Origin: a virus
Length of the DNA stretch: 51,888 nucleotides
Virus record (IMG/VR): IMGVR_UViG_3300035584_000037
Span: 1 to 51,888 of that record
Direction: 5' to 3' (one strand)
A program made the translations under genes and the position numbers. Of this stretch, positions 30,021 to 51,888 are shown in pieces. The notes below the pieces were generated by a model that was not told the DNA's origin, ran no database searches, and saw only the letters and a program-made list of their open reading frames with translations. How positions within the stretch are numbered: position 1 is the stretch's first letter; every line of letters begins with the position of its first letter.

Positions 30021-30281
30021 ATGCCGTATGTTACTGTAACAGTTAATTCTGGAATAGGTTCAAGTAGTGGTGATACAGGTGCTAATGCTTATGCTTCTCA
30101 AAGTTCGGTGGAGAGTACTATTGCTGCTATGTTTGGGTCAATTAAAGAAGTGCATTCTAATGCAAGTGCCGCTACTATTGCTGCTAAATTAAATGAATTT
30201 TTAACCAAGCTATCTTATACACGTATAGCAACGATTACATCTGATTCCTCAGAATCTTCGGAATCAAGCGTTTCTATATAA
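30021..30281 (+). CDS. Small virion protein with Ser-rich tail, paralogue 1
   Basis: 86 residues behind GGAGG. The core HSNASAATIAAKLNEFLTKLSYTRI is clearly related to SNADAAASAAKINEIIDKISITRM in the next gene, so the two are tandem paralogues. The end is a short serine tract (SDSSESSESSVSI). Location before the protease, scaffold and capsid genes suggests a head-decoration or head-fibre role. The Ser tail may be an acceptor for sugars; that is inference. Confidence 0.72.
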   Translation: MPYVTVTVNSGIGSSSGDTGANAYASQSSVESTIAAMFGSIKEVHSNASAATIAAKLNEFLTKLSYTRIATITSDSSESSESSVSI

Positions 30282-30300
30282 TTTAAAGGAGATTATTAAA

Positions 30301-30657
30301 ATGGTTGTATACACTAATCCCCTTGTCAATAACTCTGATGAGGGGTCGAATGCTATAGCTGGGCAAGTTTCATTAGAGGACGGGCTTCGTCGTAAGATTG
30401 GTACGATAGCAATGTTAGCATCGAATGCTGATGCTGCTGCATCTGCGGCTAAAATTAATGAGATTATTGATAAGATTTCGATTACTAGGATGATAGTGAC
30501 ATATTCCGATTCGTCTTTGTCGAGTTCTAGTATGTCTAGTGAATCTTCAGATTCCAGTATATCTTCTTTATCAAGCGATTCATCGGTATCATCAATTTCT
30601 AGTGTATCATCGGGAAGCTCCCATTCCAGCGCTAGTTCTCATTCTAGTACGGTATAA
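30301..30657 (+). CDS. Small virion protein with long (Ser-Ser-x)n tail, paralogue 2
   Basis: 118 residues behind AAAGGAG. Residues 1-66 match the previous gene's core. Residues from about 70 on are a tract with period three in which about two of three residues are Ser and the third varies (L,S,M,E,D,I,L,D,V,I,V,G,H,A,H). Mixed Ser codons (TCN and AGY) show the tract is kept at protein level and is not a DNA slippage product. Such tails may extend from the capsid surface. Confidence 0.75.
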   Translation: MVVYTNPLVNNSDEGSNAIAGQVSLEDGLRRKIGTIAMLASNADAAASAAKINEIIDKISITRMIVTYSDSSLSSSSMSSESSDSSISSLSSDSSVSSISSVSSGSSHSSASSHSSTV

Positions 30658-30815
30658 TGTTTAATATTAAACTTATAGAAGCTAAAATTGGGAAATCTTC
30701 TAGTGAGCTTAATAGGTTATGGAAATCAGTTAAGCTCACTATTAAAGATATAAATCCTAAATCTAGTGAATGGTATTTGGTAGCAATGAATAAATTTAAA
30801 GGCTTAATTAAATAA
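30657..30815 (+). CDS. Small basic protein (52 aa)
   Basis: The ATG overlaps the last base of the preceding TAA. The product (MFNIKLIEAKIGKSSSEL..., ...SEWYLVAMNKFKGLIK) is basic and helical. Not recognised. Its position just ahead of the protease-scaffold gene is where T4-like phages carry small prohead core proteins, so a core role is possible. Confidence 0.55.
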   Translation: MFNIKLIEAKIGKSSSELNRLWKSVKLTIKDINPKSSEWYLVAMNKFKGLIK

Positions 30816-30839
30816 TTTTAAATTCTAGGAAATTGTAAC

Positions 30840-32357
30840 ATGCATTTAATTGATGAATCTAAATTTTCTGAGTTTGAGATTCTTAAGGAATCTGATCAAC
30901 CGTTGCCTCCCGGTGTTATAGCTAGAGGTAAGGGTCCTATAGGGATAACAGAGACAGAAAATAAAAATGGTAGATGGTATAGTAACGATTTTTGGGAGAG
31001 TGTACTAAGTAATCCTGAAACTCAAAAATCCTTAAAAGAGAGATCAATGGTAGGTTCTGCTGATCACCCCTCCTCTTATTTACCGCCTTTTCATATGATA
31101 TCCCATGTTATAACTGATGCTAAAGTTGATCGTAATAGTAATGCTCTTTTAGCGGATTTTGATATACTTGATACTCCTATGGGTAAGATAGTTAAGACAT
31201 TATTTGATGCCAAGGTTAAAGTTGGGGCATCTACTAGAGCACTAGGTAAGACTAAGTTAGAGAGTGGTAGAAATAAAGTTCAAAAAGAGGGGTATCATTG
31301 GGGGGGATTTGATTTTGTTTTAGACCCATCTTGTCAGAATGCATACCCGTCGATTAAAGAAAATATTGAGAAGGTTATATCTGAATCTTCTTGTGATTCA
31401 TTATTTTCATCTAAGGAATCAGTAAAAGATGCTGTTAAATTATATGAAAATTTTATGAATAAATTTGGGTGCGATACTAAGTTGCTTTTTGAGAAAGCTC
31501 AACAAATGGATTCTATAAATGAAGATGTTATGCAAAAAAATATTATTGCATTGCAATCTCAACAACTAGTTTTAGATTCTGAATATAAGGATTCTTTATC
31601 TACTATTAATGATATGGAAATTAAGATAAAGGAATTATCAGATGTAAATGAGAGTAATTCCAAAAAGTTAGATCAAGTAAATTTAGAATTAGAGAATAGT
31701 AAAAAAGAAATTTCTTCTTATAGAGATACAATTGAAAAATTGAGCACTAAAATCAATTTTTTAAAAGAATTGTATTTAGAATCAGGTATTGATGATCTTA
31801 AAAAGATTCAAATAAATAATGAATCCATTATAGAGTCAAAAACTGATATTAAAAAAGAAGAGGTAAAAAGTCAATCTTCTGATACTAAGATTGAAGGAAT
31901 ATCTTCACTATTAGATAATAAAAAAGATAATAGTATCAATGTAAAGGATGATAAAATAATTTCTTTAGAGAAGTCTAATATTGAATTAAAGAGATTAAAT
32001 CGTTCTTTGACGGAGAAGAATGCACAATTAGTTCTTCAATTTGGGTATGACAAGAATATGTATGAAGTTAGTTTGAATGCTCTTAAAGAAAAGGTAGAGG
32101 ATGGTAATTTTGTTATTGAATCCCTTAAAGAAGATTTGGGTCTTGCTAAAATAGAAATCGATAAACTAAGAAAACCTATAAATGAATCTGTAGAAATTAA
32201 GAAAGTTGTAAACAAACTATCTTCAGATGTATTGGATGAATCGCCTATTAATGCTACTTTTATTCTTAATGAGGATAAAAAAGATAGTAAGAAAAGTGAT
32301 TCTAAAATAAGAGATAATGTAAAATCAATTTATTCTAATGTTAAGAAAGGTCGATAG
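30840..32357 (+). CDS. Prohead protease fused to scaffold
   Basis: 505 residues. Residues about 20-180 resemble gp21-type prohead serine proteases: GSADHPSSY gives catalytic His (about 76) and KVKVGASTRALGK gives the Ser (about 131), with WGGFDFVLDPSCQNAYP closing the domain. Residues about 190-490 are long, charged, coiled-coil-like helices, as expected for a scaffold core. T4 encodes protease (gp21) and scaffold (gp22) separately; here they look like one chain. It would drive prohead assembly and then digest the core. The stop precedes the capsid gene by one base. Confidence 0.88.
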   Translation: MHLIDESKFSEFEILKESDQPLPPGVIARGKGPIGITETENKNGRWYSNDFWESVLSNPETQKSLKERSMVGSADHPSSYLPPFHMISHVITDAKVDRNSNALLADFDILDTPMGKIVKTLFDAKVKVGASTRALGKTKLESGRNKVQKEGYHWGGFDFVLDPSCQNAYPSIKENIEKVISESSCDSLFSSKESVKDAVKLYENFMNKFGCDTKLLFEKAQQMDSINEDVMQKNIIALQSQQLVLDSEYKDSLSTINDMEIKIKELSDVNESNSKKLDQVNLELENSKKEISSYRDTIEKLSTKINFLKELYLESGIDDLKKIQINNESIIESKTDIKKEEVKSQSSDTKIEGISSLLDNKKDNSINVKDDKIISLEKSNIELKRLNRSLTEKNAQLVLQFGYDKNMYEVSLNALKEKVEDGNFVIESLKEDLGLAKIEIDKLRKPINESVEIKKVVNKLSSDVLDESPINATFILNEDKKDSKKSDSKIRDNVKSIYSNVKKGR

Positions 32358-32358
32358 T

Positions 32359-33762
32359 ATGGGTATTAATTTATCCCAAGAACAATTGAATGAGGCTTAT
32401 AGTCAGCTTTATGGTGAATGTGTCGGGTTAGTAGAAAAATATAATAGCTATATTGATCCTATTAAAGAGGTTTCTCCCGGTATTAGTGATTTTACTGTAG
32501 AGAATATTGCTATTGTTATGGAAAATTTGGATAGATGGTTACATAATAAACGTATGGATGAAACTACTACGGCAGTTAATGTAGGTAGTTTTATTAATTA
32601 TGGTTTTGAGCTTCTTGCTGCAATGTTTCCAGCTTTGATTGCAAATGATATAGTATCAGTTCAACCAATGACTAGACGAGTTGGGGAAATTTTCTTTATG
32701 GAATTTCTTTATGGTACTACTAAAGGAAACATCACTAAAGGTCAAAAGATGTTTTCTTTTGAGACTGTTGGTAATAAAAATACTTATTATACCGGAGATT
32801 TTGATATTACTGAGACAGTAGGTACTGGTGATGCTGCAACAAAAACTTTTCATGGTTTTTTGAATAATATCCCGATGGTAGCCGGTTCAGCGGTTATTAC
32901 TGATGGGGTAGAAACTTTTTCTGAGCCAGTAACACCGGATGGAACTTTGTCAGGTGATTTGGGGGGTAGTGGTACTATTAATTCTAATAACGGTGCTTTT
33001 TCAGTAACTTTTAATACCGCTCCGGTTCTTTCTCAGGCTATCACGGCTACATGGAATATTGATTATCAGAAGAATACTGATCTTATTCCTGAAGTTGATA
33101 TTAGCATTACGTCAAGTACTGTTACAGCTACTAATCGTAAGCTTAGAGCTAAATATTCACTTGACGCTGCTTATGATGTTGAGCAAGGTCATGGAAGATC
33201 AATTGATAATGAGCTTAAGGTTGCAACAGCTAGTGAAGTGAGAATGGAAACCGATTCTGGAATTTTAAATCAGCTTTACGCACAAGGTACGGCTCCTGCT
33301 ACGGCATGGTCGCGTACTCCACCTAGCACCGCTGTTGCTTGGGCTGATCATAAATGGTCATTCTATGATCAGGCTATTTTGCAAGTAAAGAATGATATTT
33401 TTGAGCAGACTCGCAAGGTAGAGGGTAATTTTATAGTAGTGGGTTCCTCAGTTGCTTCCGTAGTAGAATCCTTGGCTCCTATTTATAAAAGTGATGCTTC
33501 TGTACAACCCGGTCCTCATTATATGGGTATGTTGGGGGATTTTAGGGTATACAAGAATCCTATGTATGATGCTTTGAAATGGCTTATGGGATATAAAGGA
33601 TCGATGTTTCTTGAAGCGGGATTTGTTTGGGCACCTTATTTACCTCTTTACGTATCAAGAACTATTGTTCTTGATGATCTTCTTGGTAGGTTTGGTATGA
33701 TGCAGAGTGATGCACGTAAGATGGTAAATTCTTTGTTTTATTCCCCGAACATCATTTCGTAA
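32359..33762 (+). CDS. Major capsid protein (gp23-type)
   Basis: 467 residues from ATG 32359, placed 8 bases after GAAAGG; an in-frame codon at 32338 lies inside the scaffold gene. Key T4-gp23-like segments are ENIAIVMENLDRWLH, TTTAVNVGSFINYGF, ALIANDIVSVQPMTRRVGEIF and FMEFLYGTTKGNI. A beta-rich insertion at about residues 150-235 (TKTFHGFLNNIPMVAGS to AITATWNIDY) looks like an Ig-like insertion domain. The late YKNPMYDALKWLMGYKGSMF and PLYVSRTIVLDDL complete the HK97-type fold. A terminator follows, so this gene can be expressed at a high level on its own. Confidence 0.93.
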   Translation: MGINLSQEQLNEAYSQLYGECVGLVEKYNSYIDPIKEVSPGISDFTVENIAIVMENLDRWLHNKRMDETTTAVNVGSFINYGFELLAAMFPALIANDIVSVQPMTRRVGEIFFMEFLYGTTKGNITKGQKMFSFETVGNKNTYYTGDFDITETVGTGDAATKTFHGFLNNIPMVAGSAVITDGVETFSEPVTPDGTLSGDLGGSGTINSNNGAFSVTFNTAPVLSQAITATWNIDYQKNTDLIPEVDISITSSTVTATNRKLRAKYSLDAAYDVEQGHGRSIDNELKVATASEVRMETDSGILNQLYAQGTAPATAWSRTPPSTAVAWADHKWSFYDQAILQVKNDIFEQTRKVEGNFIVVGSSVASVVESLAPIYKSDASVQPGPHYMGMLGDFRVYKNPMYDALKWLMGYKGSMFLEAGFVWAPYLPLYVSRTIVLDDLLGRFGMMQSDARKMVNSLFYSPNIIS

Positions 33763-33774
33763 TAATTTTTAACT

Positions 33775-33805
33775 AAGTAGGATAGACTTTTCTATCCTAC
33801 TTTTT
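33775..33805 (+). terminator. Strong rho-independent terminator after the capsid gene
   Basis: AAGTAGGATAGA (33775-33786) pairs exactly with TCTATCCTACTT (33791-33802) over a CTTT loop, with T at 33801-33805. Twelve base pairs make it the strongest hairpin in the window. Confidence 0.93.
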
Positions 33806-33816
33806 GGAGTATTTTT

Positions 33817-34194
33817 ATGTCAACAGTTATCAGACTGTATAATAATAATAAATTTATTTTAACTATTCCTTTTTGTGAGGGAAGGAAAACAGTTATTATT
33901 CAAGCTAAATCGGTGGCTTTTTTTGGTGGGGATTTAAATAGTAGGGATAAAGGGATGATAAAATCCTCCAATTGCATATGTTCTATTGTATTAGAAGAAG
34001 ATATGAATAAAGAATTGAGATGTCTTTTGAATCCTAGATATAGACCCAATCCTTTTAAATTTATTGATCCTAATCCAGTAATTTCTGTTATAAAGGATTC
34101 TATTATAGAAATAAAGCAGGATGATCATATAGATAGGCCAAAATTGAGAAAAGTTAGAGAATTGAAAATTAAAGATAATAGTCCACAAATTTAG
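33817..34194 (+). CDS. Hypothetical virion protein
   Basis: 125 residues behind GGAG. VIRLYNNNKFILTIPFCEGRKTVIIQ is beta-rich; the last third is basic (RPKLRKVRELKIKD). No family recognised. Placement between the capsid and neck genes suggests a head-completion or head-vertex role. It is the first gene past the strong terminator. Confidence 0.7.
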   Translation: MSTVIRLYNNNKFILTIPFCEGRKTVIIQAKSVAFFGGDLNSRDKGMIKSSNCICSIVLEEDMNKELRCLLNPRYRPNPFKFIDPNPVISVIKDSIIEIKQDDHIDRPKLRKVRELKIKDNSPQI

Positions 34195-34199
34195 GTATT

Positions 34200-34886
34200 A
34201 TGACTAGGAATGATATTCTAACTTATGTAAAGAATAAATTAACTGCTGGCGGTAAAGTAGATTTAGAAGTAGCCGATCAAGCAATTGATACTTATATTTA
34301 TGATGCTTTTATAAAGGCTCAACCTTGGTATACTGAGCCTTTATTTGGCGAAACATTAGAAGTAACTTTTAGTGAAGCTGATTCTTCTTATATATTATTC
34401 TCCCAATTTTCTAAAATTCCCGATTTAGTTTATAAAGTGTATCCTTCTGCACAGACGGGGATGGGATCGTTTGATAATGATGTTGCTGGTTTATTGAGTT
34501 TAGAAGGTAAGCATATCATATCTCAAAACATGGTATCCGCTGCTTATGCATTAGAATTTGAGAGACAGGCTGACACTTTTTTAAATTCTACTTTAAAAAA
34601 TTTTATGGGAATAGATAGGCTTTATATAAGTGGTGCAGTAGTATATGATTCTGTAACTGTTTTATACTATCCCAAAGTTGATTCTATGGAGGATGTAACT
34701 AATCCTAAAGCGGTAGCATGGATGTTGGATTATGTATTAGCTTCTACTAAAGTTGCAGTAGGTATGATAAGATCAAAATTTAGGGGAGGGGATTTAGGGT
34801 TAGATAATGATGGTATAGAAATGAAAATTGAAGGTAACACTAAAATAGATTCATTAATGGAAGAACTCCCAAAATTGAGTTTTTAA
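34200..34886 (+). CDS. Neck / head-tail connector protein (tentative)
   Basis: 228 residues. DILTYVKNKLTAGGKVDLEVADQAIDTYIYDAFIKAQPWY, then FSKIPDLVYKVYPS and YISGAVVYDSVTVLYYPKV match the general layout of neck or connector proteins near gp13/gp14 of T4-like phages, with a helical start and beta core. The assignment rests on position and layout more than on a firm motif. It is followed with a one-base overlap by the next connector gene. Confidence 0.58.
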   Translation: MTRNDILTYVKNKLTAGGKVDLEVADQAIDTYIYDAFIKAQPWYTEPLFGETLEVTFSEADSSYILFSQFSKIPDLVYKVYPSAQTGMGSFDNDVAGLLSLEGKHIISQNMVSAAYALEFERQADTFLNSTLKNFMGIDRLYISGAVVYDSVTVLYYPKVDSMEDVTNPKAVAWMLDYVLASTKVAVGMIRSKFRGGDLGLDNDGIEMKIEGNTKIDSLMEELPKLSF

Positions 34887-35437
34887 TGTTAGAGTTTAGA
34901 TTTGATGCAAATTTACCAAAAAAATTAAGTGTAGATTTAAATACATATAAGCATTTATTGTTAGAAAAGTATACCACTCGATATCCGCAAGTTTTATTTT
35001 ATTCTTTATTATTGCCAAATATTTCGGCTGTTAATAATATTCAATACCAGGACGGGAAAACTGTTGTTGATGATTTGTGGGGGGATATTATACCTTTTGA
35101 GTTAGCTTCTGGATTTGTACAACCTCATACTAATAATATTAATCCTAATGAATTGGAGGTATTTAGTAATCCTTATAAGATAAATATGAGGATAGCATAT
35201 ACTCCAAAACAACAAAAACAATTAAAACATGGTCAAGATTGGTCGCATGAGTTAAATGTTTATTTTTTAATACCTCAGTTTGAGAATTTTAATTTAATTA
35301 TTAAGCAAGGTGATAGATTTGTATGGAAAGATGCTATTTATGAGATTGTTAGACATGAATTAAAGGGGAGATGGGGGGATACCGATTATTTTTTATATTG
35401 GTCAGTTTATTCAGAGCCTAAACAAATAGGTTCATAA
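34886..35437 (+). CDS. Head-tail connector-type protein
   Basis: 183 residues. LPKKLSVDLNTYKHLLLEKY and the central Pro-rich beta segments lead to NLIIKQGDRFVWKDAIYEIVRHELKGRWGDTDYFLYWSV. The latter resembles head-closure proteins that describe an interface with 'G-D-R-x-x-x-x-x-x-Y-E-I'. It overlaps the previous gene by one base. Exact role in the neck is inferred from position. Confidence 0.58.
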   Translation: MLEFRFDANLPKKLSVDLNTYKHLLLEKYTTRYPQVLFYSLLLPNISAVNNIQYQDGKTVVDDLWGDIIPFELASGFVQPHTNNINPNELEVFSNPYKINMRIAYTPKQQKQLKHGQDWSHELNVYFLIPQFENFNLIIKQGDRFVWKDAIYEIVRHELKGRWGDTDYFLYWSVYSEPKQIGS

Positions 35438-35438
35438 G

Positions 35439-35450
35439 TATATATTATAG
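35439..35450 (+). promoter_or_regulatory. TATATATTATAG motif
   Basis: Exact 12-mer also found at 5158-5169 and 37221-37232. Here it ends 4 bases before an ATG that lacks a ribosome site. Candidate promoter or processing site. Confidence 0.35.
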
Positions 35451-35454
35451 ATAT

Positions 35455-35985
35455 ATGGTAAAACCTGTAATTAAGGTTAAAGTAAAAACTTTTGGCATCG
35501 AGTCTACTAGTAATTTTCTTAGTAGTTTACAACAGCAATTACCAGAAGTAGTATCGGGAGTAGTAGAAGATATAGCTAATGATGTGGTAGAAGGTATAAA
35601 ATCAAATATAGAAAATCAAAGTTACAAACATAAGCCTTTAACACCTAATTATAAAAGATATAAAATTTTACATGGTTTGGATTCTAGGATTCTGATAAGA
35701 ACTAAGTTTTATTTAAATAAGATAAATGTATTTTCAGGAAAAATAAAAAATGAGTTTTTATATCATATAGGTGTATCTAAGTTAGAAGAATATTCTGATG
35801 GTAAGAAACTATATGATATAGCTAAATGGCTGGAATATGGTACAACTAAAATGGTAGCTAGACCAATATATGCTCCTGAATTAAAGAATATAAAAGAAAA
35901 TCTTAGTGTGTATATAAAGTTTATAAATGGTAAGATAGGTAAATTTATAAAGATCAGTAAGAAAAATTCAAAATTAAAAAAGTGA
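35455..35985 (+). CDS. Tail-completion protein (HK97-gp10-like)
   Basis: 176 residues. SGVVEDIANDVVEGIKSNIENQ opens a helix typical of HK97-gp10 type proteins, and IAKWLEYGTTKMVARPIYAPELK is the diagnostic W-x-E-Y-G-T-x-x-M-x-A-R-P. These proteins join the tail end to the neck. There is no visible ribosome site; the 12-mer TATATATTATAG directly precedes the ATG. The last 30 residues are strongly basic. Confidence 0.83.
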   Translation: MVKPVIKVKVKTFGIESTSNFLSSLQQQLPEVVSGVVEDIANDVVEGIKSNIENQSYKHKPLTPNYKRYKILHGLDSRILIRTKFYLNKINVFSGKIKNEFLYHIGVSKLEEYSDGKKLYDIAKWLEYGTTKMVARPIYAPELKNIKENLSVYIKFINGKIGKFIKISKKNSKLKK

Positions 35986-35993
35986 GTTAATAA

Positions 35994-36596
35994 ATGCGTT
36001 TAACTACATCTAGAAAAGATTTTCACAGACATTCATTTGAGGTCTCTCCTTGTGGTAATGGAGTTACTACTCTTAATTTAGATCATCGTCATGAGATTAA
36101 AGGTTTTGTAGTACATGAGGTTAATGGTCATAGTCATATTTTATATGGTATTCCTGATAAATGTACGGAATCTTCTAAGAAGGCGAAATATACAGGTAGT
36201 ACATCACAATCCATAGAAGAAAAATCAATTAATGTTTATGGTGAAATTCCTCATGATCGTGAATATGGTGATCATCGAAGGGTAGCAGCAATTAAAAAAT
36301 TGATTTATGGAATTAATGAATCAAGTAAAATTAATGAAGAAAAATATCTTATGAATGTAAAAACTGGTTCTGTAGACACTTACGATAATTGGAAGAGTGA
36401 TTCTGAGAATGATGGATGGAATTTTGATAAAGAGTTATCTAGTGGTAATTTAGTTAGTGTTAAGAAAGATAATAGTGGTGATTGGGTAGAAGAAAAATCA
36501 ATTAATGTTTATGGTGAAATTCCTCATGATCGTGAATATGGTGATCATCGAAGGGTAGCAGCAATTAAAAAATTGATTTATGGAGAGGATAAATAA
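35994..36596 (+). CDS. His-rich virion-associated protein with an exact internal duplication
   Basis: 200 residues. The N-terminal part (HRHSFEVSPCGNG..., LDHRHEIKGFV, GHSHILYG) has a spaced pattern of His residues that would bind metal. After that, a 32-residue unit starting EEKSINVYGEIPHDREYGDH occurs twice, at about residues 75-106 and 166-197. A segment KTGSVDTYDNWKSDSENDGW lies between. The unit HDREYGDHRRVAAIKKL may be a binding motif. No enzyme family recognised. Confidence 0.72.
   Translation: MRLTTSRKDFHRHSFEVSPCGNGVTTLNLDHRHEIKGFVVHEVNGHSHILYGIPDKCTESSKKAKYTGSTSQSIEEKSINVYGEIPHDREYGDHRRVAAIKKLIYGINESSKINEEKYLMNVKTGSVDTYDNWKSDSENDGWNFDKELSSGNLVSVKKDNSGDWVEEKSINVYGEIPHDREYGDHRRVAAIKKLIYGEDK
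36214..36311 (+). repeat. 98-bp perfect direct repeat, copy 1
   Basis: The 98 bases here are identical to 36487-36584, 273 bases (91 codons) away in the same gene. No silent change separates the copies, which means very recent duplication or continuous conversion. Confidence 0.95.
36487..36584 (+). repeat. 98-bp perfect direct repeat, copy 2
   Basis: Second copy of the repeat at 36214-36311, ending 12 bases before the stop of the same gene. Recombination between the copies would delete exactly 91 codons without a frameshift. Confidence 0.95.
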
Positions 36597-36598
36597 TT

Positions 36599-36793
36599 AT
36601 GGATTTATTGACAAAGATGTATGAGGATAAGATATTGAAAGAGGATGTTAATCCTTTAGATAGTGAACTTGATGAAGTTTATAAGAAAATAGATGCGGCA
36701 TTGAGATATACCAATATTTCTATTGACAAGAAAAAAAGTTTTTGTTCTTCAGTTATAGCTTATGTAAATTTAAAGAGATTACAGATTAAATAA
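36599..36793 (+). CDS. Hypothetical small helical protein
   Basis: 64 residues (MDLLTKMYEDKILKEDVNPL ... YVNLKRLQIK), charged, entirely helical by appearance. The ATG lies 2 bases after the previous stop, behind GAGAGG. No family recognised. Lies among neck and tail genes, so likely structural or assembly-related. Confidence 0.65.
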   Translation: MDLLTKMYEDKILKEDVNPLDSELDEVYKKIDAALRYTNISIDKKKSFCSSVIAYVNLKRLQIK

Positions 36794-36807
36794 AATAATT
36801 TATTTAT

Positions 36808-37194
36808 ATGGAATGGTTATTTAGAGCTAAGGTTATAAAAGTATTAGATTATAATAAAATTGATTTATTTTTTGATCTTGGTTTTGGTATTAAATTTAGA
36901 AATATAGTAACCATTTCTGATTTTAGTATAGATGAAGATAAAAAATTACAAGCAAAGAATTGTCTTGTTGTACTAATTGGTGGTCATAGGGTAGTAATTT
37001 CTTCAATTAAAAATAAATACAGTAATTTATATGATGTTAGGGTGTATTTATACAATCCTATAAAATTAGAAAATGTGTATGAATGTATCAATGATTTTAA
37101 ATTGCCTTGTGTTAATAAGATAATGAATAAATTGAAGGATTTTGATTATGATCCAGAAATTTTAAAGTCATATATTCCCCAGATGTTACCTTAG
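36808..37194 (+). CDS. SNase-like fold protein (degenerate)
   Basis: 128 residues. FRAKVIKVLDYNKIDLFFDLGFGIKFRNIV closely follows the N-terminal strand pattern of phage thermonuclease-like proteins (A-x-V-x-K-V-x-D-G-D-T-x-x-x-x-x-D-L-G-F-G-I), but the catalytic D-G-D is replaced by D-Y-N and the usual later Arg/Glu are not evident. Nuclease activity is therefore unlikely. A structural use of the fold or a scaffold role is possible. Confidence 0.62.
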   Translation: MEWLFRAKVIKVLDYNKIDLFFDLGFGIKFRNIVTISDFSIDEDKKLQAKNCLVVLIGGHRVVISSIKNKYSNLYDVRVYLYNPIKLENVYECINDFKLPCVNKIMNKLKDFDYDPEILKSYIPQMLP

Positions 37195-37336: not shown

Positions 37337-38629
37337 TTGTCGTACCCATATACATTGAACGATACGTTTAGGTCATATGATCAGCTTATCTATGAATGGT
37401 TAGACAAGCTTAAAATCAATTATGGTAGTTTAGGAGGAGTACCTCGTACTAATTTTGGAATATTGCGATGTTTTGCTACTCCTAGAAGGGCGTTTGCTAC
37501 TATGGAGGAGATGTTGATAAGGAAGAATTGGTTAGATTCTTCTAGTCCCGAAGATGGATCAGGTTCGGGTATTAAGACAGTACATTCTTATCAACGAATA
37601 CCTTTACCTTTTTGTTCTATCGAGAGAACGGATTATATTGTAGATAAATCAAGATTTAGTACTGGGGAATTTACAGTTTATTCTAATAATGGGTATACAT
37701 CAAATAAATATAAGTTTCCATTTCCTATTGATTTATCTTATAAATTAGAATTTTGGTGTAAGCAAAGATTTACAGTAATGCATATTTTAGAATGGGTAGT
37801 ATCTCAATTATCCCCAAAAGGTATGGGACATAGTGAAATGTTGTTCAAGGTAACACCTATTGATCATAGTGGTAATACCCCATATGGTAGTAAGACAGTG
37901 CCTTTTATTATGGATACTTTCACGGACAATTCTGATATAGAACCTGGTGAAAATCAAAGAACTTTAAGACTTACTTTTATTTTTACATTGAAGGCATGGT
38001 TATTCTATCCACCCCTGTCAACAGATGGTAGATATGGCATGTTGAATGGTCCTTTGGATGTAGTAAGTCAATCAAGTACACCTACATTAGACATAAAAGA
38101 ATTTACTACAACTATGGAGATTAATACTGATATAAAAAGACAAGATGATAATAAGCCATATTGTACGGGGGAGTTGTTTGACACTCATTCTGAATATGGT
38201 TTTAATTATATAAATGCGGAAGATGTGTTACTAGAGAATATTTCTGAATTATCAAAATATGTAGTAACTGATGATAATGAGATTAAATTTTATTCAAAAT
38301 CAGAAGATGATTATTTGTATTTTAATTTATTACCATTATTACCCGAAACCTATTCTATAGGCGGTATATATTATTCTTTTGGTAATGTAATTATAGATGT
38401 ACTGTCTAAAGAAGGTATTTTATTAGATTCTTTTGTATTGGGTATGGTAGATGAACCGACATTATTTAATCATGATTTTATTAATGAAGAAAATGAAGTA
38501 GATATAAGAATATTCTCTGATCAAAGGTTAACATTAAAAAATTTTTATTTTAAAAGATCAACACATTCTTATCAAAGTAATTCAAGTACATCTAGTTTTT
38601 CAAGTGTATCAAGTTATTCTAGTATATAA
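37337..38629 (+). CDS. Virion structural protein with Ser-rich tail
   Basis: 430 residues from TTG 37337, 9 bases after GAGG. Beta-rich throughout; no firm family. Regions such as LPFCSIERTDYIVDKSRFST and FPFPIDLSYKLEFWCKQRF resemble T4-like neck or tail-terminator-type proteins of metagenomic phages. The last 20 residues (STHSYQSNSSTSSFSSVS...) form an (S-x-S)n tract like those of the genes at 30021, 30301 and 50786. Located directly before the sheath gene, so a tail terminator or collar role is possible. Confidence 0.68.
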   Translation: MSYPYTLNDTFRSYDQLIYEWLDKLKINYGSLGGVPRTNFGILRCFATPRRAFATMEEMLIRKNWLDSSSPEDGSGSGIKTVHSYQRIPLPFCSIERTDYIVDKSRFSTGEFTVYSNNGYTSNKYKFPFPIDLSYKLEFWCKQRFTVMHILEWVVSQLSPKGMGHSEMLFKVTPIDHSGNTPYGSKTVPFIMDTFTDNSDIEPGENQRTLRLTFIFTLKAWLFYPPLSTDGRYGMLNGPLDVVSQSSTPTLDIKEFTTTMEINTDIKRQDDNKPYCTGELFDTHSEYGFNYINAEDVLLENISELSKYVVTDDNEIKFYSKSEDDYLYFNLLPLLPETYSIGGIYYSFGNVIIDVLSKEGILLDSFVLGMVDEPTLFNHDFINEENEVDIRIFSDQRLTLKNFYFKRSTHSYQSNSSTSSFSSVSSYSSI

Positions 38630-38721
38630 TTTTTTATATAGAGTCTACCTATATTCAATAGGGTTTATAAAATAATATTCGACTTATATACTATAAGTAA
38701 ATAAATTTTTGGAGGTTTATT

Positions 38722-41867: not shown

Positions 41868-41876
41868 GGTGCAATA

Positions 41877-44360: not shown

Positions 44361-44362
44361 TT

Positions 44363-44950
44363 GTGTATAATGAACCTAATAGTACATATACAAATGCAAA
44401 TAAATTTGAAGGTAATCATGAGGCTTTTGCGTACCTTGAGATTGATTTAGATTATCCAAAAATATTAAGAGATAAGTTCCCTATTCAGAGATTAACATTT
44501 ACATATTTACCAACAGAGATTTCTGATAGCGGATCTGATCCAGTATGGAATGAAATTTCTGTTATGGGCAGATATTCCCCTTATATGGTTTATGGTGGTA
44601 CATCAGTAAATGATATATCTTTTACATTACATTTTTATGCTACTGGTAATCCTGTATCTGATGTAAAGCAAAAAGTTGATTGGTTAAGATCGATGAAATA
44701 CCCCGTTTTACACGAAAATGTTTCTTATAGACCCCCCACATTGATTTTTTATTGGGGTAATTTAATTAGAAGAAGAGTTATATTGAAATCAGCACATCCT
44801 ATATATAGATCTCCTTGGTATGTGGAGGATATAAGTGATGTAGCTGTAGTATATCCGTTACATGCTATGATTGCGGAAGTATCCATTATTTTAACTGTAG
44901 TAGAGAATGATTTTATTTCTGGTCCTGATGTTATGAGAGGTATTAGATAA
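44363..44950 (+). CDS. Baseplate/tail tube-initiator type protein
   Basis: 195 residues from GTG 44363 with GGGG upstream. AFAYLEIDLDYPKILRDKFPIQRLTFTYLPTEIS and YGGTSVNDISFTLHFYATG, then WLRSMKYPVLHENVSYRPPTLIFYWGNLIRRRVIL look like the beta-barrel of tube-initiator or LysM-adjacent baseplate proteins (gp48/gp54-like role). The exact T4 equivalent is uncertain. Confidence 0.65.
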   Translation: MYNEPNSTYTNANKFEGNHEAFAYLEIDLDYPKILRDKFPIQRLTFTYLPTEISDSGSDPVWNEISVMGRYSPYMVYGGTSVNDISFTLHFYATGNPVSDVKQKVDWLRSMKYPVLHENVSYRPPTLIFYWGNLIRRRVILKSAHPIYRSPWYVEDISDVAVVYPLHAMIAEVSIILTVVENDFISGPDVMRGIR

Positions 44951-44956
44951 TATTAT

Positions 44957-45475
44957 ATGGTTGATCTTAGAGTAGATTCTAGATATTTATTAACCAATAT
45001 TCTTACTGATGAAAATGGTAAAGAATATTTTGATGTATGGGAATCTATAGATATCAAATCACAGAATGACGATAGAGTTTTATCCGTATCAGAAATTGAT
45101 TTGGGAAGATTTGATAGGATTACTAATAATTTATATTCCAATCCTTCTTATTGGTGGTCTATTTTTCATTTTAATGATATTGAAGATCCTTTTTCTGAGA
45201 TTGATTTTAGTGATGCTGATCATCAGATTTCTTATCCTAATTATTATTTACAGGGGGGTAATTCTAAGGTATCTTTACCAGAAGAGTTTTCAAATACTAA
45301 TTTGATAGCATTAGGTATTGACCCTTTAAATATAGAGTTATCCGATTTACCTAAAATAATGAAATATATAAAAGTTCCAGAATACGATTCTAACACTAAA
45401 TTTAATGTCCCATCTAGAAATAATTTACAAGAGGTTATGTCAGATGCTCAAAACAGATCTACAGCCAATAGTTGA
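44957..45475 (+). CDS. Baseplate wedge protein (gp53-like)
   Basis: 172 residues. YFDVWESIDIKSQNDDRVLSVSEIDLGRFDRITNNLYSNPSYWWSIFHFNDIEDPFSEIDF is the gp53-type pattern: 'D-R-I-x-x-x-x-Y-x-x-P-x-Y-W-W-x-I-x-x-x-N-x-I-x-D-P'. It stabilises contact between wedge subunits. The last 32 bases overlap the start of the hub gene. Confidence 0.84.
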   Translation: MVDLRVDSRYLLTNILTDENGKEYFDVWESIDIKSQNDDRVLSVSEIDLGRFDRITNNLYSNPSYWWSIFHFNDIEDPFSEIDFSDADHQISYPNYYLQGGNSKVSLPEEFSNTNLIALGIDPLNIELSDLPKIMKYIKVPEYDSNTKFNVPSRNNLQEVMSDAQNRSTANS

Positions 45476-46643
45476 TTTATATATAGATGGGCATAGAATA
45501 CCTACACATGAATATTTGACTAAATTAGAAGTTAAACGTTCAATTGGTGTAGGGGGGTATGAGGGCAATCTTGAATTATTTGATCCGACATGGACTTTTT
45601 TAGAAAGTTTTATTCTTGAAAAAGGGGTAAATACTTCTATAGATTTTTCTTATGGGTGGGGTAGTGATTCATCTATTCAAGTAGAAGCAAAATTGATGAA
45701 TTATAAACCACAATTTTCGGAGGACGGTGTTCATATTTATATAGAGTTTGCTTTAGGTAGTAGAGTTGAAAATAGAGTAAAGCATAACATTTGTTGGCCT
45801 GGATCTATGACTATTTCTGATATAGTTACAAATATAGCAAAAAATAATGGCTGGCAATATGAAATAGAGCCAACAAAGGGAATTTTTGATAGATCTTTTG
45901 TTCAAGATAGTGTATCGGATGCTTATTTTATAAAGAATATTTTATCTCCTAGAGCTATTAATCATTCTAATGTTGGGGGATATAAATTTTATTTAGAGAA
46001 TAATAAGTTATTTTTTTCTACGAAGAGTTATAAAAGAGATAATATTTACAAAAGTTATGTTTTTCAACGTGGGGATATGCATGAGGTAATAAGTTTCTCT
46101 CCCTCTGATAATGTGGCTGATATGGCTCAGTTTGGGGGTACTAAAGTTAAAGTAACGGGGTATGACCCCAAAGAAAAAAAGATTTTATCAAGTGAAGTAT
46201 CCACTTCTAACAATTCTGGTTCTGTACCAATAGAAGGTAATAAGGTAACAAAAGTAATTAAAGATATTAATGGTGATGTAAGAGTTATCTCTAAACCGTT
46301 CCATCGTAAAGAAGATGTGGATAGTTATGCAAATTCTCAGTATTGTGAATTTGCACAATGGAGATATAATGTAGATGCTGAAATAATTGGTGATCCTAGA
46401 ATACCATTAATGAGTAATTTGGAATTTATATTGATAACATCAATGGGTTCAGTGCATTATATGTCCGGGGTATATCAATTATTTGAAGCTACAGATAAAA
46501 TTGAAAATGGGTCTTTTAAATCCCAGTTATCATTAATGAGAAGTTCCATATCGAGAGGATCTGAAACGGTTAAAGGAATAATAAAAAAGTTAGTCAAAAC
46601 CGAACCTATAAATATTAGTAAAATTAGAAAGGTATCAAAATAA
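45444..46643 (+). CDS. Baseplate hub protein (gp27/gpD-like)
   Basis: 399 residues from ATG 45444, 9 bases after GAGG; the earlier in-frame ATG 45405 lies deep in the previous gene. LQPIVDLYIDGHRIPTHEYLTKLEVKRSIGVGGYEGNLELFDPT begins like gpD/gp27 tube-shaped hub proteins. MTISDIVTNIAKNNGWQYEIE is the helical element between barrels. SVHYMSGVYQLFEATDKIENGSFKSQLSLMR is the conserved ending. It overlaps the next gene by one base. The hub would link the tail tube to the spike. Confidence 0.88.
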   Translation: MLKTDLQPIVDLYIDGHRIPTHEYLTKLEVKRSIGVGGYEGNLELFDPTWTFLESFILEKGVNTSIDFSYGWGSDSSIQVEAKLMNYKPQFSEDGVHIYIEFALGSRVENRVKHNICWPGSMTISDIVTNIAKNNGWQYEIEPTKGIFDRSFVQDSVSDAYFIKNILSPRAINHSNVGGYKFYLENNKLFFSTKSYKRDNIYKSYVFQRGDMHEVISFSPSDNVADMAQFGGTKVKVTGYDPKEKKILSSEVSTSNNSGSVPIEGNKVTKVIKDINGDVRVISKPFHRKEDVDSYANSQYCEFAQWRYNVDAEIIGDPRIPLMSNLEFILITSMGSVHYMSGVYQLFEATDKIENGSFKSQLSLMRSSISRGSETVKGIIKKLVKTEPINISKIRKVSK

Positions 46644-47308
46644 TGCCGGGACTGTCTTTAATTGATCTTGTTAATAATAGAGACAATATTTTACCTAAAG
46701 ATACTGTATCGGGTATATATAGAGCTATTGTTAAGGATAATGATGATCCAGAGAAGAGATTAAGATTAAAAGTCCTAATACCTTCTATACATCCAAGCAA
46801 TGTTCCTGTATCTTCACTTCCTTGGGCCGATTGTTGTACTAGTGTAGCTGGACCGTCAAGATGTGCTACTATGCGCCCTAAGATTGGGGATGTAGTATAT
46901 ATTATATTTGAGATGGGTGATAAGCATTATCCGGTATGGCTAGGTTCGTGGTTTGCTGCACCTAGCAATCAATCGGAATTACCTAAAACTTTACAAGATA
47001 GTTCAGATCATTATCTGATTCATACTGATAACGGTAATTTAATAGATATTTCTGATGAGTCCGGAAAAATAAGCATAAATATTAGTACAAAAAATGGAAA
47101 TAAGATTGTATTAGATGATACAGGGGGTAAGATTGATATTATAGCTGGGGAGACTAATGCAATAATTAACATCAAGCCATCTTCTACGGGATCAATTAAT
47201 TTAGGTAATAATCCAATAACACCTTGTAATGATTTTCCATTATGTCCAATTTTAGGGAAACATTCTATAGGTACGGATATTTCTGGTAATAAGGTAATAG
47301 TACCATAA
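46643..47308 (+). CDS. Baseplate spike protein with OB fold (gp5-like)
   Basis: 221 residues. An OB-fold domain (YRAIVKDNDDPEKRLRLKVLIPSIHP, LPWADCCTSVAGPSRCATMRPKIGDVVYIIFEMGDKHYPVWLGSW) is followed by beta-helix-like short repeats (LIDISDESGKISINISTKNGNKIVLDDTGGKIDIIAG). No lysozyme domain is present, unlike T4 gp5. This would be the membrane-piercing tip. The C-terminal region has several cysteines (CNDFPLC) that could bind a metal at the tip. Confidence 0.9.
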   Translation: MPGLSLIDLVNNRDNILPKDTVSGIYRAIVKDNDDPEKRLRLKVLIPSIHPSNVPVSSLPWADCCTSVAGPSRCATMRPKIGDVVYIIFEMGDKHYPVWLGSWFAAPSNQSELPKTLQDSSDHYLIHTDNGNLIDISDESGKISINISTKNGNKIVLDDTGGKIDIIAGETNAIINIKPSSTGSINLGNNPITPCNDFPLCPILGKHSIGTDISGNKVIVP

Positions 47309-47309
47309 T

Positions 47310-47612
47310 ATGAATTCTACAGTATTAATAACTGCTATTAAAGCTGATTTATCAATAAAGTTATTAGGTAAAACTATAACATTTACAAAGCCTGATGGTA
47401 CACATGATGTTAGAAATGCTTTTGATTTAACTACTGCGGTATTAGATAGTGGTGAAAATTATTTAAAATTTTTATTGGATTCTTTAGTAGAATCAATTGC
47501 TACACAGACTATATCCCATATACAAAATTCGGGAGTAATCTCTATTTCATCTGTGTCACTTGTTACTCCCGGCACTGGAATATCTGGTCCTGGTGTGGGA
47601 ACTATTAGTTAG
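47310..47612 (+). CDS. Small baseplate-associated protein
   Basis: 100 residues: an N-terminal helix, then TFTKPDGTHDVRNAFDLTTAVLDSG and a small-residue-rich ending (SLVTPGTGISGPGVGTIS). No firm family. Position between the spike and gp25-type genes suggests a baseplate role. Starts one base after the spike stop. Confidence 0.62.
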   Translation: MNSTVLITAIKADLSIKLLGKTITFTKPDGTHDVRNAFDLTTAVLDSGENYLKFLLDSLVESIATQTISHIQNSGVISISSVSLVTPGTGISGPGVGTIS

Positions 47613-47621
47613 GTTACAATT

Positions 47622-48032
47622 ATGGCAATTATAGTTGAAGATAAATGGAGAGGTATAGGTGCTCCTTTTAGTAGAGGGGTTCACGGGCATTTTACTTCTA
47701 AGACGACAAAAGATTTAATAAAATCTTCTCTTACTATGATTTTATCTACATATTTAGGTAGTAGAATAATGAGGCCGGATTTTGGTTCGGTATTACCCGA
47801 AATACTTTTTGATCCTATAGATTCAATAATGATCTCTAAAATTCAAATATATGTTCCAGATGCTATAAGAAAATATGAGCCTAGGTTATCAAATGTTTCG
47901 GTTTCGTCCTCCATTAAGAATAAAGAAGTTAATATTACTATTTCTGCTACTATAGTTGAAACAGGTGATCCAGTAAAATTTTATTTAAATGCTATTAAAA
48001 ATAAAGATAATTCTCTTCAAATGGTGGTTTAA
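47622..48032 (+). CDS. Baseplate wedge protein (gp25-like)
   Basis: 136 residues. TTKDLIKSSLTMILSTYLGSRIMRPDFGSVLPEILFDPIDSIMISKIQIYVPDAIRKYEPRLS is the gp25/GPW family signature, with the E-P-R-L motif (Arg/Glu residues important for sheath-baseplate signalling) intact. It links the baseplate to the start of the sheath. Confidence 0.95.
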   Translation: MAIIVEDKWRGIGAPFSRGVHGHFTSKTTKDLIKSSLTMILSTYLGSRIMRPDFGSVLPEILFDPIDSIMISKIQIYVPDAIRKYEPRLSNVSVSSSIKNKEVNITISATIVETGDPVKFYLNAIKNKDNSLQMVV

Positions 48033-48035
48033 TAG

Positions 48036-49979
48036 ATGTCAAGTACTAGAGATTTTTTGCCAAGTATCAGCTATCTTTCTAAAGATTTTTTTGCTATTGT
48101 TGATGATCTTAATGCTTATATACAAGAAAATTACAAGGATTTTTGGAATGATTTTACACAATCGAATTTAGGGGAGGCTTTAATTGATCTTTTAGCTTAT
48201 ATAGGTGATCAATTAAATTTTTATCTTGATAAACGTGTAAATAATATGTATTGGGATACAGTATCAAGATATGAATCAATTCTTAGATTATGTCGTCTAA
48301 TAGGGTATTATCCTACTGGGACGGTAGGTTCTCGTGTTAATGTTGTAGCTAGGAGAGGTGGGATTAATATTTATACAGAGTATCCTAGTTATGGTAGTAC
48401 TAGTAGCAGATATTTTTTAATTAAGGGGGGTCATTGGGGCGAAGCTCCTAATAAGCAAACTTTTATTCCCGGTCAATCTATAACAGTCGGGGATTTAATT
48501 TTTGAAGTTTTAGAGGATACTAAGATATATAATAGTTTACCACATGTAGGTGATATAGAATCAATATTAAGTAGATTGGAGCATGAAGTAAAAGATAACG
48601 ATCATCCATCTACAGTTTATGATATTATACAATTTTTTATGTATCAAGGTCAAACTGTACAAGACACTTTTGTATCCGATGGAACAGCCTTTCAGATTTT
48701 TGAAACTTCCCGCGATTCTATTATTGACAATTCTTGGAAATTCTGTATAAATAATGTGGGGCATGATGATGGAGAGCCGGGTGGTAGTAGTTCTAGTGAT
48801 GGGTGGATACAAGCCACTGATAATACTTTTGTAAAACATGTAGCCGGATCACATGTTTATACCATAGATTATATAGAAGATGGAAAAATTAGAGCTAAAT
48901 TCGGTAATGGTTCTGATTATGGGTCTATCCCATTAGAGGGTGCTAATATAACTATTGCTTACCGTATAGGAGGAGGTTTTAGTACTAATATTATTAGCGG
49001 TGTTATAAAAGCATTAGAAAATAATGTTTTTGCAGACTTATATGAGTATAATTCGGGTGGGGATATACTCATATCTTCTGGTATTAGTATACCTATAAAT
49101 AATGATTCATATTTTTTAGAATCTAATAATACTAGTATTAATGATTATGGTGGTAAAGGGCAATATGGTGCGGATAAGGAGTCTATAGATAATATAAAGA
49201 TAAGAGCACCTAATCATTTATCATCTACTAATAGAGCAATTACTAAATTAGATATTCAGACATTAGTGAGTGATTTCAGATATTATGACGAATCTAGTCA
49301 ATTGACTTACCAAGTATCAAAAGTTTCAGTATCTAGAGTTGAAGGTGTTTTAAGATATGTAGATTATGAACCAGGTAGCCCCACTTTTGGGTGGTTATAT
49401 ACTCAACCTAGTGATGGTAGGACTGAGATAAAATATGAGGGTCAGGCTATACCTATATATATACCTAGTTATGGATGTAATATTATACAAATTTATGTAT
49501 GGCAATTGGGGAATAACGGGGAAGATGTTGTTGCAGATGATATTTTAATTAATGCTTTGAGGGATTATCTAAATAAGGGAACACTATTTTCTACTGATAC
49601 TAGACTAGGTGATATAGGTATGACTTCTGTTTATTATAGTGTTAATAAGGGTAGTTTCCAAGATATTATTGTTAATTTAAATACCACATTAACTTCCGGG
49701 GCTAGTGGTGTATCGTATGATCCGGTCTTTAAAAAGATGGGTACTAATAGTTTAGATACCCAGATTAACACAGCAATATCTAATTTATTTTTGAATAAGG
49801 AGCCGGGGATAAAATTTTCTACTTTGAGTGTGTGGAGAGCAATATCCGCTATTAGTGGTATACTAGATTTTGCTGTAACGTTGAATGGTGGTTCCGTAGA
49901 CATAGTTGTTACCTCTGATAAGATAGCTAGACTTGCTTTATCAGGAGGTTTAGTTTTTAATCTTGTTCCAGAAGTATAA
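48036..49979 (+). CDS. Baseplate wedge protein (gp6/gpJ-type)
   Basis: 647 residues. FWNDFTQSNLGEALIDLLAYIGDQLNFYLDKRVNNMYWDTVSRYESILRLCRLIGYYPTG is the characteristic N-terminal wedge domain. NIKIRAPNHLSSTNRAITKLDIQTLVSDF is the BaseplateJ-like core. The size matches T4 gp6. It follows the gp25-type gene in the usual order and starts 4 bases after it. Confidence 0.93.
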   Translation: MSSTRDFLPSISYLSKDFFAIVDDLNAYIQENYKDFWNDFTQSNLGEALIDLLAYIGDQLNFYLDKRVNNMYWDTVSRYESILRLCRLIGYYPTGTVGSRVNVVARRGGINIYTEYPSYGSTSSRYFLIKGGHWGEAPNKQTFIPGQSITVGDLIFEVLEDTKIYNSLPHVGDIESILSRLEHEVKDNDHPSTVYDIIQFFMYQGQTVQDTFVSDGTAFQIFETSRDSIIDNSWKFCINNVGHDDGEPGGSSSSDGWIQATDNTFVKHVAGSHVYTIDYIEDGKIRAKFGNGSDYGSIPLEGANITIAYRIGGGFSTNIISGVIKALENNVFADLYEYNSGGDILISSGISIPINNDSYFLESNNTSINDYGGKGQYGADKESIDNIKIRAPNHLSSTNRAITKLDIQTLVSDFRYYDESSQLTYQVSKVSVSRVEGVLRYVDYEPGSPTFGWLYTQPSDGRTEIKYEGQAIPIYIPSYGCNIIQIYVWQLGNNGEDVVADDILINALRDYLNKGTLFSTDTRLGDIGMTSVYYSVNKGSFQDIIVNLNTTLTSGASGVSYDPVFKKMGTNSLDTQINTAISNLFLNKEPGIKFSTLSVWRAISAISGILDFAVTLNGGSVDIVVTSDKIARLALSGGLVFNLVPEV

Positions 49980-49984
49980 TTATT

Positions 49985-50782
49985 ATGTACTATCCTTTTA
50001 TTTTATTTCCTATAACATATAAATGTAATTTACATTGTAGTAATTGTGTTGTTAAAGATTTTAATCAGGAATTGGACATAGAGAAATCTATTAAAATTTT
50101 AAAAAGTATCCCTGTAGAGTGGGTATACTTAACTGGAGGGGAGCCTTTTTTAAATAACAATTTAATGGATATTTGTAAAGAATTAAAATCTATTAATAAA
50201 AAGATAGGTATTACTACTAATGGTACAATTCATAATTTTGATGTTTTAGAATATGTTGATAGAGTAGGTGTATCAATTGATGGATTAAAGGAGTATCATG
50301 ATGAGTATAGGGGTAATGGAGTTTTTGATTTAGCTATAGAATTTTTAAATCATTGTAAATATAAAGAATCTGTTTTGATGTCAACTATATATAAAGATTC
50401 TTATAATAAAGTAATAGAATTAAAATCAGTATTATATGATTTAGGTGTAAAATATTGGCAAGTTTCTAGAGATGTTAATGATTTATCAATTAATTTAAAA
50501 AAAGAAGATTTTAATGTGAATAATATAATAACTAAAGTAATTAATAATTATATGAATCATACTTTAGTTTTATATGGTAATAACATATCATTGACAAAGT
50601 GTAATAGTAATGAAGTTTTATCTGGGGTAATATCTAACCCCGCTTTTAAGAGTATGGGATGGGTAAGAACATTTTTTTCCCAAATTTTTCAGAATAGTAC
50701 TTATGATCCTGATGGAATTTTAAAAGCATACTTGGATATTATAAATGCCTGTTGTATAACGGGGGCTAAATCTAGGTTATAG
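49985..50782 (+). CDS. Radical SAM protein
   Basis: 265 residues. The N-terminal CNLHCSNC is C-x3-C-x2-C for the 4Fe-4S cluster and SAM. VEWVYLTGGEPFLNNNLMDIC is the GGEP motif and KIGITTNGT and VDRVGVSIDGLKEYHDEYRG complete the partial TIM barrel. The family is MoaA/SPASM-like. The C-terminus has only scattered Cys (KCNSN, ACC) and no clear second cluster site, so the target is unknown. It starts 6 bases after the wedge gene stop and shares the same unit. Confidence 0.9.
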   Translation: MYYPFILFPITYKCNLHCSNCVVKDFNQELDIEKSIKILKSIPVEWVYLTGGEPFLNNNLMDICKELKSINKKIGITTNGTIHNFDVLEYVDRVGVSIDGLKEYHDEYRGNGVFDLAIEFLNHCKYKESVLMSTIYKDSYNKVIELKSVLYDLGVKYWQVSRDVNDLSINLKKEDFNVNNIITKVINNYMNHTLVLYGNNISLTKCNSNEVLSGVISNPAFKSMGWVRTFFSQIFQNSTYDPDGILKAYLDIINACCITGAKSRL

Positions 50783-50785
50783 ATT

Positions 50786-51888
50786 ATGAGTGACTATATT
50801 ACCGGTACTACATATTATGTAGAAGTTAGTTTAAGTGATACTTATGTAAAGACAACTGAAACTAACTTTTTATTTGTTTTTCCTTTGTCATTAATTACAG
50901 ATCCCTTGTTTTGGGGGGAAATAAGTTCGTCTTCTAATATAGGTATTTGGGATGTAGATAATTCATTAAAAAGACCCCGATATATTGGATCATATTTAGA
51001 TATAGTAAATAAGGGTGGTGTCGTATATTGGGATGCTCCATTAACAACAACAAATAAATTTAGGATTTGTGTAGGTCATGATTTATCCGAAATTGATTCT
51101 AATTCCGCATTTACTAATAGTTCAATATATGAATGTTGGCCGATGTGTGAAACTTCTGGGGCTATTTTTACTGGGATATTAAATAATTTAACTTTACATG
51201 GCAATGTTACTCCTGGAGAAGTTGGAAAGATATATAAAGCTGCTAGCATAGTTTCTGGGGGGTATATAGATGGTACACATGTAATAAATACTGGAGCACA
51301 TACGGTAAGTTTTATTATGAATATTTCAACAGATAATGGTATTATTTTTTCATTAAATAACCTGGCATTTGAAGTATATTTTGGGGGAACTATACTTATA
51401 GCTAATTTTGGGGGTGCGTGGGCATACAGTCATGATGGGGATATAGGAAAGAATAATTTTTATTTAGTAACGGTTGTCAAAGATGCAACACATTTGATAT
51501 CTATATATATAAATGGATTGTTGTCTGGTACACCATTATTTAATTTTGATAATTTCAATTCCACATTTTTATCTATAGGTAAAAGAATAAATCCAGGGGA
51601 TGATTTTCCATTTAGCGGAAGCATAGAACAGATATCATTTACAAATGATACAAAAAGTTCGGAAAATATATTAACAACATATAATATGTTGTACTATTCA
51701 TCAAATTTTTACGGTAATAATTTTTCAGTTAATTTGGGGTCGATTTCAAGTTATAGTTCAATTTTATCTTATTCATCAATTTCATCATTAAGTCATTCAT
51801 CAATTTCATCATTAAGTCATTCATCAATTTCATCATTAAGTCATTCATCAATTTCATCATTAAGTCATTCATCAATTTCATCATTAAG
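50786..51888 (+). CDS. Tail adhesin-like protein with LamG/DUF2341-type domains and Ser-rich repeats (3' partial)
   Basis: The frame is open to the window end. After a short N-terminal beta region comes FRICVGHDLSEIDSNSAFTNSS and YECWPMCETSGAIF, resembling the DUF2341/Ig-type region of surface and tail proteins. GAHTVSFIMNISTDNGIIFSLNN, YLVTVVKDATHLISIYINGL and FPFSGSIEQISFTND match a concanavalin-like (LamG) domain that often binds sugars. From about residue 315 it becomes serine-rich, finally in perfect 8-residue repeats. A receptor-binding or virion-surface protein is likely. It starts 3 bases after the radical SAM gene. Confidence 0.78.
   Translation, partial: MSDYITGTTYYVEVSLSDTYVKTTETNFLFVFPLSLITDPLFWGEISSSSNIGIWDVDNSLKRPRYIGSYLDIVNKGGVVYWDAPLTTTNKFRICVGHDLSEIDSNSAFTNSSIYECWPMCETSGAIFTGILNNLTLHGNVTPGEVGKIYKAASIVSGGYIDGTHVINTGAHTVSFIMNISTDNGIIFSLNNLAFEVYFGGTILIANFGGAWAYSHDGDIGKNNFYLVTVVKDATHLISIYINGLLSGTPLFNFDNFNSTFLSIGKRINPGDDFPFSGSIEQISFTNDTKSSENILTTYNMLYYSSNFYGNNFSVNLGSISSYSSILSYSSISSLSHSSISSLSHSSISSLSHSSISSLSHSSISSL
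51773..51888 (+). repeat. 24-bp perfect tandem repeat running off the window
   Basis: Units start at 51773, 51797, 51821, 51845 and 51869 (the last cut after 20 bases), each encoding S-S-I-S-S-L-S-H. The copies are identical. Repeat number probably varies and the true length beyond 51888 cannot be seen. Confidence 0.95.

Follow-up and report, generated by a model that had tools for sequence, protein, structure and literature searches.

The analysed window, that is, the whole stretch of DNA considered here, is a 51,888-base virus record of IMG/VR (IMGVR_UViG_3300035584_000037) from an uncultured phage, with a GC content of about 30% and all main genes on one strand. T4-like myovirus genes are present (head protease, gp23-type capsid protein, gp15-like sheath stabiliser, tail sheath and baseplate), and a large sugar-enzyme region fills the first 30 kb. 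The major capsid family is phrog_138. Used as a single query, the major capsid protein retrieved no relatives among viral contigs, and the tail sheath retrieved two distant relatives only. A 54-bp tandem repeat of 5.2 copies (52-384) adjoins the contig start and encodes a protein of 18-aa repeats without a Pfam match. At 6020-9082, about 300 intein-looking residues split the Pfam match of an anaerobic ribonucleotide reductase (NRDD), and positions 35994-36596 encode a 200-aa protein in which the segment EEKSINVYGEIPHDREYGDHRRVAAIKKLIYG occurs twice.

Four genes encode proteins with serine tracts:

30021-30281, + strand: 86-aa protein with a C-terminal (SSx) tail, paralog of the 30301 protein
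30301-30657, + strand: 118-aa protein with a 43-aa C-terminal (SSx)n tract, six Ser codons all mixed
37337-38629, + strand: gp15-like tail-sheath stabiliser (Pfam T4-gp15_tss) with an added C-terminal Ser tail
50786-51888, + strand: LamG (concanavalin A-like) protein with a Ser tract, open at the contig end

The first-pass annotation had reported these tracts, and they are present where it placed them, with period-3 Ser scores of 8 (30021), 29 (30301), 11 (37337) and 9 (50786); every other window ORF of at least 50 aa scores at most 4. The tracts are SDSSESSESSVS at residues 74-85 of 86 in the 30021 protein, residues 74-116 of 118 in the 30301 protein, and SNSSTSSFSSVSSYSS at residues 414-429 of 430 in the 37337 protein. 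The C-terminal or near-terminal position claimed for all four is thus seen in these three, whereas the 50786 tract, which runs from residue 319 on, meets no stop within the contig. Similarly, the claimed period of three is found in the tracts generally but not at the end of 50786, where the last ~118 bp form an exact 24-bp tandem repeat encoding an 8-aa unit, so the tract there is not strictly period 3.

When the residues of each tract protein were shuffled, 0 of 1000 shuffles reached its own score. In a joint shuffle of every + strand ORF, the window-wide maximum was at least 8 in about 2% of runs; hence the 30021 tract, the shortest, is weaker alone and leans partly on the paralogy with 30301 (46% identity over 52 aa, E=2e-9). 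The (Ser-Ser-x)n tracts of the window are far beyond chance. This paralogy also means the four are not, as had been stated, otherwise different proteins. As for their being virion proteins, homology supports this for one of them, 37337 (T4-gp15_tss, E=1e-9), while position and relatives suggest it for 30021, 30301 and 50786. Given three gp15-like relatives of the 37337 protein (L238, L276 and L285) have a C-terminus without a Ser tail, the tail of 37337 is an added module, and Ser tails native to gp15 proteins are ruled out. Neither the gp15-like protein nor the 30301 protein had a match in cultured phages, a search that low-complexity filtering limits for 30301. A radical SAM protein (49985-50782) is encoded between a baseplate gene and 50786.

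The remaining genes of interest are the sugar enzymes, among which the first-pass annotation had counted about ten glycosyltransferases:

1593-4145, + strand: fusion of a GT9-like domain (four invariant Cys) and a GT4 GT-B half, proposed Ser glycosyltransferase
9082-9774, + strand: WbqC-like protein, possible sugar-modifying accessory
10174-10890, + strand: putative glycan-cassette gene, homolog immediately after the 1593 homolog in locus L331
11096-11773, + strand: putative glycan-cassette gene, homolog following that of 10174 in the L331 cassette
12023-12568, + strand: GT2 glycosyltransferase (Pfam)
20130-21020, + strand: DXD-type glycosyltransferase (Pfam, Gly_transf_sug)
24701-25555, + strand: GT4-like glycosyltransferase (Pfam, Glyco_trans_1_2)
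26530-27285, + strand: galactosyltransferase-like (Pfam, Glyco_transf_7C)
28067-28777, + strand: glycosyltransferase-cassette gene, family unassigned, homologs beside a 1593 homolog in seven loci
28781-29566, + strand: GT2-like glycosyltransferase (Pfam)

Six of these have Pfam support as glycosyltransferases (1593, 12023, 20130, 24701, 26530 and 28781); 10174, 11096 and 28067 have no Pfam match, and their homologs lie near a 1593 homolog. DNA methyltransferase-like genes are scattered among the sugar enzymes (13437-14204, 23290-23913, 25724-26536 and 27282-28070), with Pfam confirming two N6_N4_Mtase and one MT-A70; those at 13437 and 13965 resemble a single split gene.

The enzyme at 1593-4145 is 850 aa long, or 844 aa from the ATG at 1611, with an N-terminal GT9-like domain and a C-terminal GT4 GT-B half. 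A single-sequence search of the PDB with this enzyme gave nothing useful, unlike a profile of 36 relatives, for which the best match is TibC (4RB4/4RAP, E=1.8e-5), above LPS heptosyltransferases. The AlphaFold2 model is confident (pLDDT 84), and Foldseek assigns it the GT9 fold, with a TM of about 0.5 to TibC, which is among the top matches, although two GT9 enzymes that do not modify proteins rank above it by E-value. The invariant Asp, Lys and four Cys of the family are all retained in the window copy. The invariant G15-D16 pair falls on the GD motif of GT9 3tov, which suggests D16 as the counterpart of the catalytic Asp of TibC (D110), and the invariant K190 aligns with the sugar-binding Lys of TibC (K230). 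All four cysteines (C307, C313, C339 and C353) are invariant in alignment A3; three align with TibC C342, C358 and C370 in the profile match and the fourth is shifted. On sequence grounds they recall the iron finger of TibC, in which four cysteines hold iron and which puts heptose on Ser, not Thr (PMC4358343).

This family is almost absent outside uncultured viruses. A tblastn search of 50,697 phage records gave no match, and a scan of cellular genomes found the family at two loci only. One of these, possibly viral, has a full cassette together with a 912-aa Ser protein. A GT9-domain homolog occurs, with a ribonucleotide reductase and other glycosyltransferase-like genes, in a MAG labelled Candidatus Lokiarchaeota (L338, WJMJ01000101.1), where it may sit on a virus contig in the bin.

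The lead towards this enzyme came from a scan of viral contigs for mixed-codon Ser tracts (at least 120 stretches), with which the main window genes were compared. The 1593 enzyme stood out, with homologs in L040, L086, L087 and L107, each near Ser-rich ORFs. In the reverse test, relatives of the enzyme were fetched from 2.9 million viral contigs regardless of serine, yielding 72 loci, two of which (L040 and L107) had first been met through their tracts. Ser tracts were found in the fetched flanks (~10 kb) of 44 of the 72 loci or, once redundancy was removed, of 39 of the 62 clusters; among random loci chosen by an arbitrary 14- or 16-base string, the count was 1 of 132 (Fisher p ~1e-23). The density of tract ORFs was 65 versus 1.8 per Mb. 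Upon further reading of the enzyme contigs, 51 of 62 clusters presented tracts, compared with one of the 14 random contigs, 40-77 kb in length: most of the initially negative contigs that were read further, including L154, had tracts elsewhere. Five enzyme-bearing contigs (L126, L164, L166, L182 and L187) have none and L162 only a doubtful one; several of the remaining tract-negative contigs are short fragments.

In the forward test, the enzyme is found in 9 of 38 tract contigs and, as a weak partial match, in 1 of 50 random contigs (p=0.002). The p values apply to each test separately and take no account of phylogenetic relatedness. Tails in relatives without glycosyltransferase genes had been named in the first-pass annotation as evidence against its proposal; 29 of the 38 tract contigs do lack the 1593 enzyme, yet many are short fragments and several carry Ser/Gly-rich tails. 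The latter are of a different kind: L013, L016, L045, L056 and L074, which lack the enzyme, encode proteins that match the window's 48036 baseplate protein at their N-terminus and finish in a tail rich in Ser and Gly, some of them with SSG repeats.

These values indicate the 1593 enzyme and Ser tracts are associated across unrelated phages. Tight physical linkage was dropped as the main evidence, given proximity within loci is only mildly non-random (permutation p=0.04); in the window itself, ~26 kb separate the enzyme from the first tract gene. In most enzyme-bearing relatives the tracts are far longer than those of the window.

The association is specific to this enzyme. GT2 genes are present in 7 of 38 tract contigs and in 8 of 50 random contigs, i.e., without enrichment, and the GT2-rich random contigs G042, G043 and G050 have no Ser tract, which rules out a link between tracts and just any glycosyltransferase. 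Hence, the co-occurrence of Ser tails and glycosyltransferases that the first-pass annotation suggested checking holds for one fusion enzyme, located outside the coordinates given there (30021-51888), and not for GT2; its phage-encoded glycosylation of the tracts has strong comparative support, yet glycosyltransferases in general are not linked to them. It is also specific to serine: around the enzyme family, no excess of tracts was seen for T, G, A, N, P, E, K, D or Q.

In composition, the tracts are 85.7% Ser and 0.62% Thr, in comparison with 6.2% and 5.7% elsewhere in the same loci. Codons of the AGY and TCN types are mixed in 66 of 68 tracts, as had been observed for 30301, so selection acts at the protein level. 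This rules out DNA slippage as the source of the tracts, although the last part of 50786 in the contig is an exact 24-bp array of recent origin. One could read the tracts as unmodified flexible linkers or spacers, with the glycosyltransferases acting elsewhere, since Ser-rich linkers are common in general and gp6-like baseplate proteins bear (SSG)n tails in contigs that lack the enzyme. However, an unmodified linker should tolerate Thr, Gly and Pro, and should not follow one rare enzyme across unrelated phages; we therefore hold this reading to be unlikely. Another modification, e.g., phosphorylation of Arg/Ser-rich runs, is given almost no weight: although Arg and Lys rank first and third in frequency among the non-Ser residues of the tracts, no kinase was noticed beside the inspected tract genes, whose recurrent neighbours are sugar enzymes. 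Likewise, we deem it highly improbable that the glycosyltransferases glucosylate phage DNA. Phages do use such enzymes for DNA hypermodification (Pyle 2024, cited in PMC12619734) and the window has several DNA methyltransferases, but no gene for hydroxymethyl-nucleotide synthesis was recognised by inspection among the window ORFs, and the Ser-tract association would be left unexplained.

Regarding the breadth of the association, comparing lineages through gene sharing was uninformative, given cassette genes connect nearly all loci, and capsid families were compared instead. The association is found with major-capsid families phrog_138 (the window), 334 (L183), 267 (L138), 371 (L137) and 9953 (L181), and also in long-tailed phages with a tail fiber J or tape-measure protein. 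Locus L183 presents the order terminase, portal, capsid protein, Ser-tail protein, DegT aminotransferase, GT9-GT4 fusion, methyltransferases, two Ser-tract proteins and a structural gene; its cassette is thus inside the structural module, flanked on both sides by Ser-tract genes, and one of its Ser-tract proteins has LamG, like 50786. The cassettes of other loci add an epimerase, a hexapeptide transferase and a GT29-like gene. Homologs of 28067 and 28781 co-occur with a 1593 homolog in 7 of the 10 loci fetched as relatives of 28781, and L331 has homologs of 1593, 10174, 11096, 28067 and 28781 in the same order as the window.

GT9 enzymes are mostly LPS heptosyltransferases, and O-antigen loci typically contain genes of the WbqC, FkbM and DegT types. 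Hence, the enzyme and its cassette might alter the host surface polysaccharide (receptor masking), with shared hosts or lineage explaining the link to the tracts. We find this quite improbable in view of the placement of the cassette within structural modules, between tract genes, the absence of a link between generic glycosyltransferases and tracts, the involvement of at least five capsid families, and the closest PDB sequence relative, TibC, modifying protein serine.

Taken together, the sequence comparisons make it likely that a phage-encoded O-glycosylation system directed at Ser uses the tracts as its acceptors. During infection, the GT9-like half of the 1593 enzyme would attach the first sugar to tract serines, as its TibC-like relationship suggests, and the GT4 half would probably add a second; the identity of the sugars, like the order of the two halves, we infer. 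Neighbouring glycosyltransferases and methyltransferases would then lengthen and modify the chain. The small head-region proteins, the gp15-like neck protein and the LamG adhesin of the virion would consequently carry flexible arms with dense glycosylation, with shielding, solubility or glycan adhesion as likely uses.

The proposed system resembles the bacterial autotransporter heptosyltransferases (BAHT; TibC and Aah, with TibA/AIDA-I) in having a GT9-type enzyme with four conserved cysteines encoded together with its acceptor, a repetitive surface protein modified at many serines and not threonines in the BAHT case. However, the phage enzyme carries a fused GT4 domain and no N-terminal beta-barrel (its GT9 domain starts at residue 5, counted from the ATG at 1611), differs in Cys spacing, and has low identity to TibC, to which it is only distantly related; the acceptors are phage Ser-tract proteins, not autotransporters. 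No autotransporter gene is found among the annotated neighbours, which are phage head and tail genes. Without barrel or autotransporter, the phage enzyme is not a BAHT member, yet it probably works like one.

In Gram-positive serine-rich repeat glycoproteins, too, a dedicated set of glycosyltransferases, encoded alongside, O-glycosylates long Ser-rich repeats; there the acceptors are cell-wall adhesins that an accessory Sec system exports. The present system shares the repeats and the co-encoded set, and differs in its phage protein acceptors and GT9-GT4 enzyme. Virion glycosylation in mycobacteriophages uses phage-encoded glycosyltransferases. Such glycans have been placed at the C-terminal ends of the head and tail proteins of a phage (Freeman et al. 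2023, cited in PMC12619734). Phages of the window's type similarly encode glycosyltransferases together with head and tail genes, but the 1593 enzyme has no homolog in the phage records searched and the acceptors are long Ser-only tracts on different proteins. Given virion glycosylation is already known from mycobacteriophages, the present system is a variant, new in its enzyme and acceptors. A literature search, with most subscription journals and preprints outside its reach, returned no paper on such a GT9-GT4/Ser-tract system.

More broadly, we give about even chances to a virus-specific hyper-O-glycosylation, in which a GT9-GT4 family nearly confined to uncultured phages glycosylates head, neck and tail proteins on Ser-only tracts that can run to hundreds of serines, the result being a mucin-like coat in many unrelated phages and a cassette that spreads between capsid lineages. 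Uncultured phages often encode glycosyltransferases, whose acceptors are mostly a matter of guesswork. With one enzyme family now tied to one type of acceptor by comparative evidence, virion glycosylation in phages becomes open to direct testing. If the proposed system is real, it would provide a compact Ser-specific protein glycosylation tool, and many environmental phages would have sugar-coated particles, bearing on their adsorption, stability and immune recognition.
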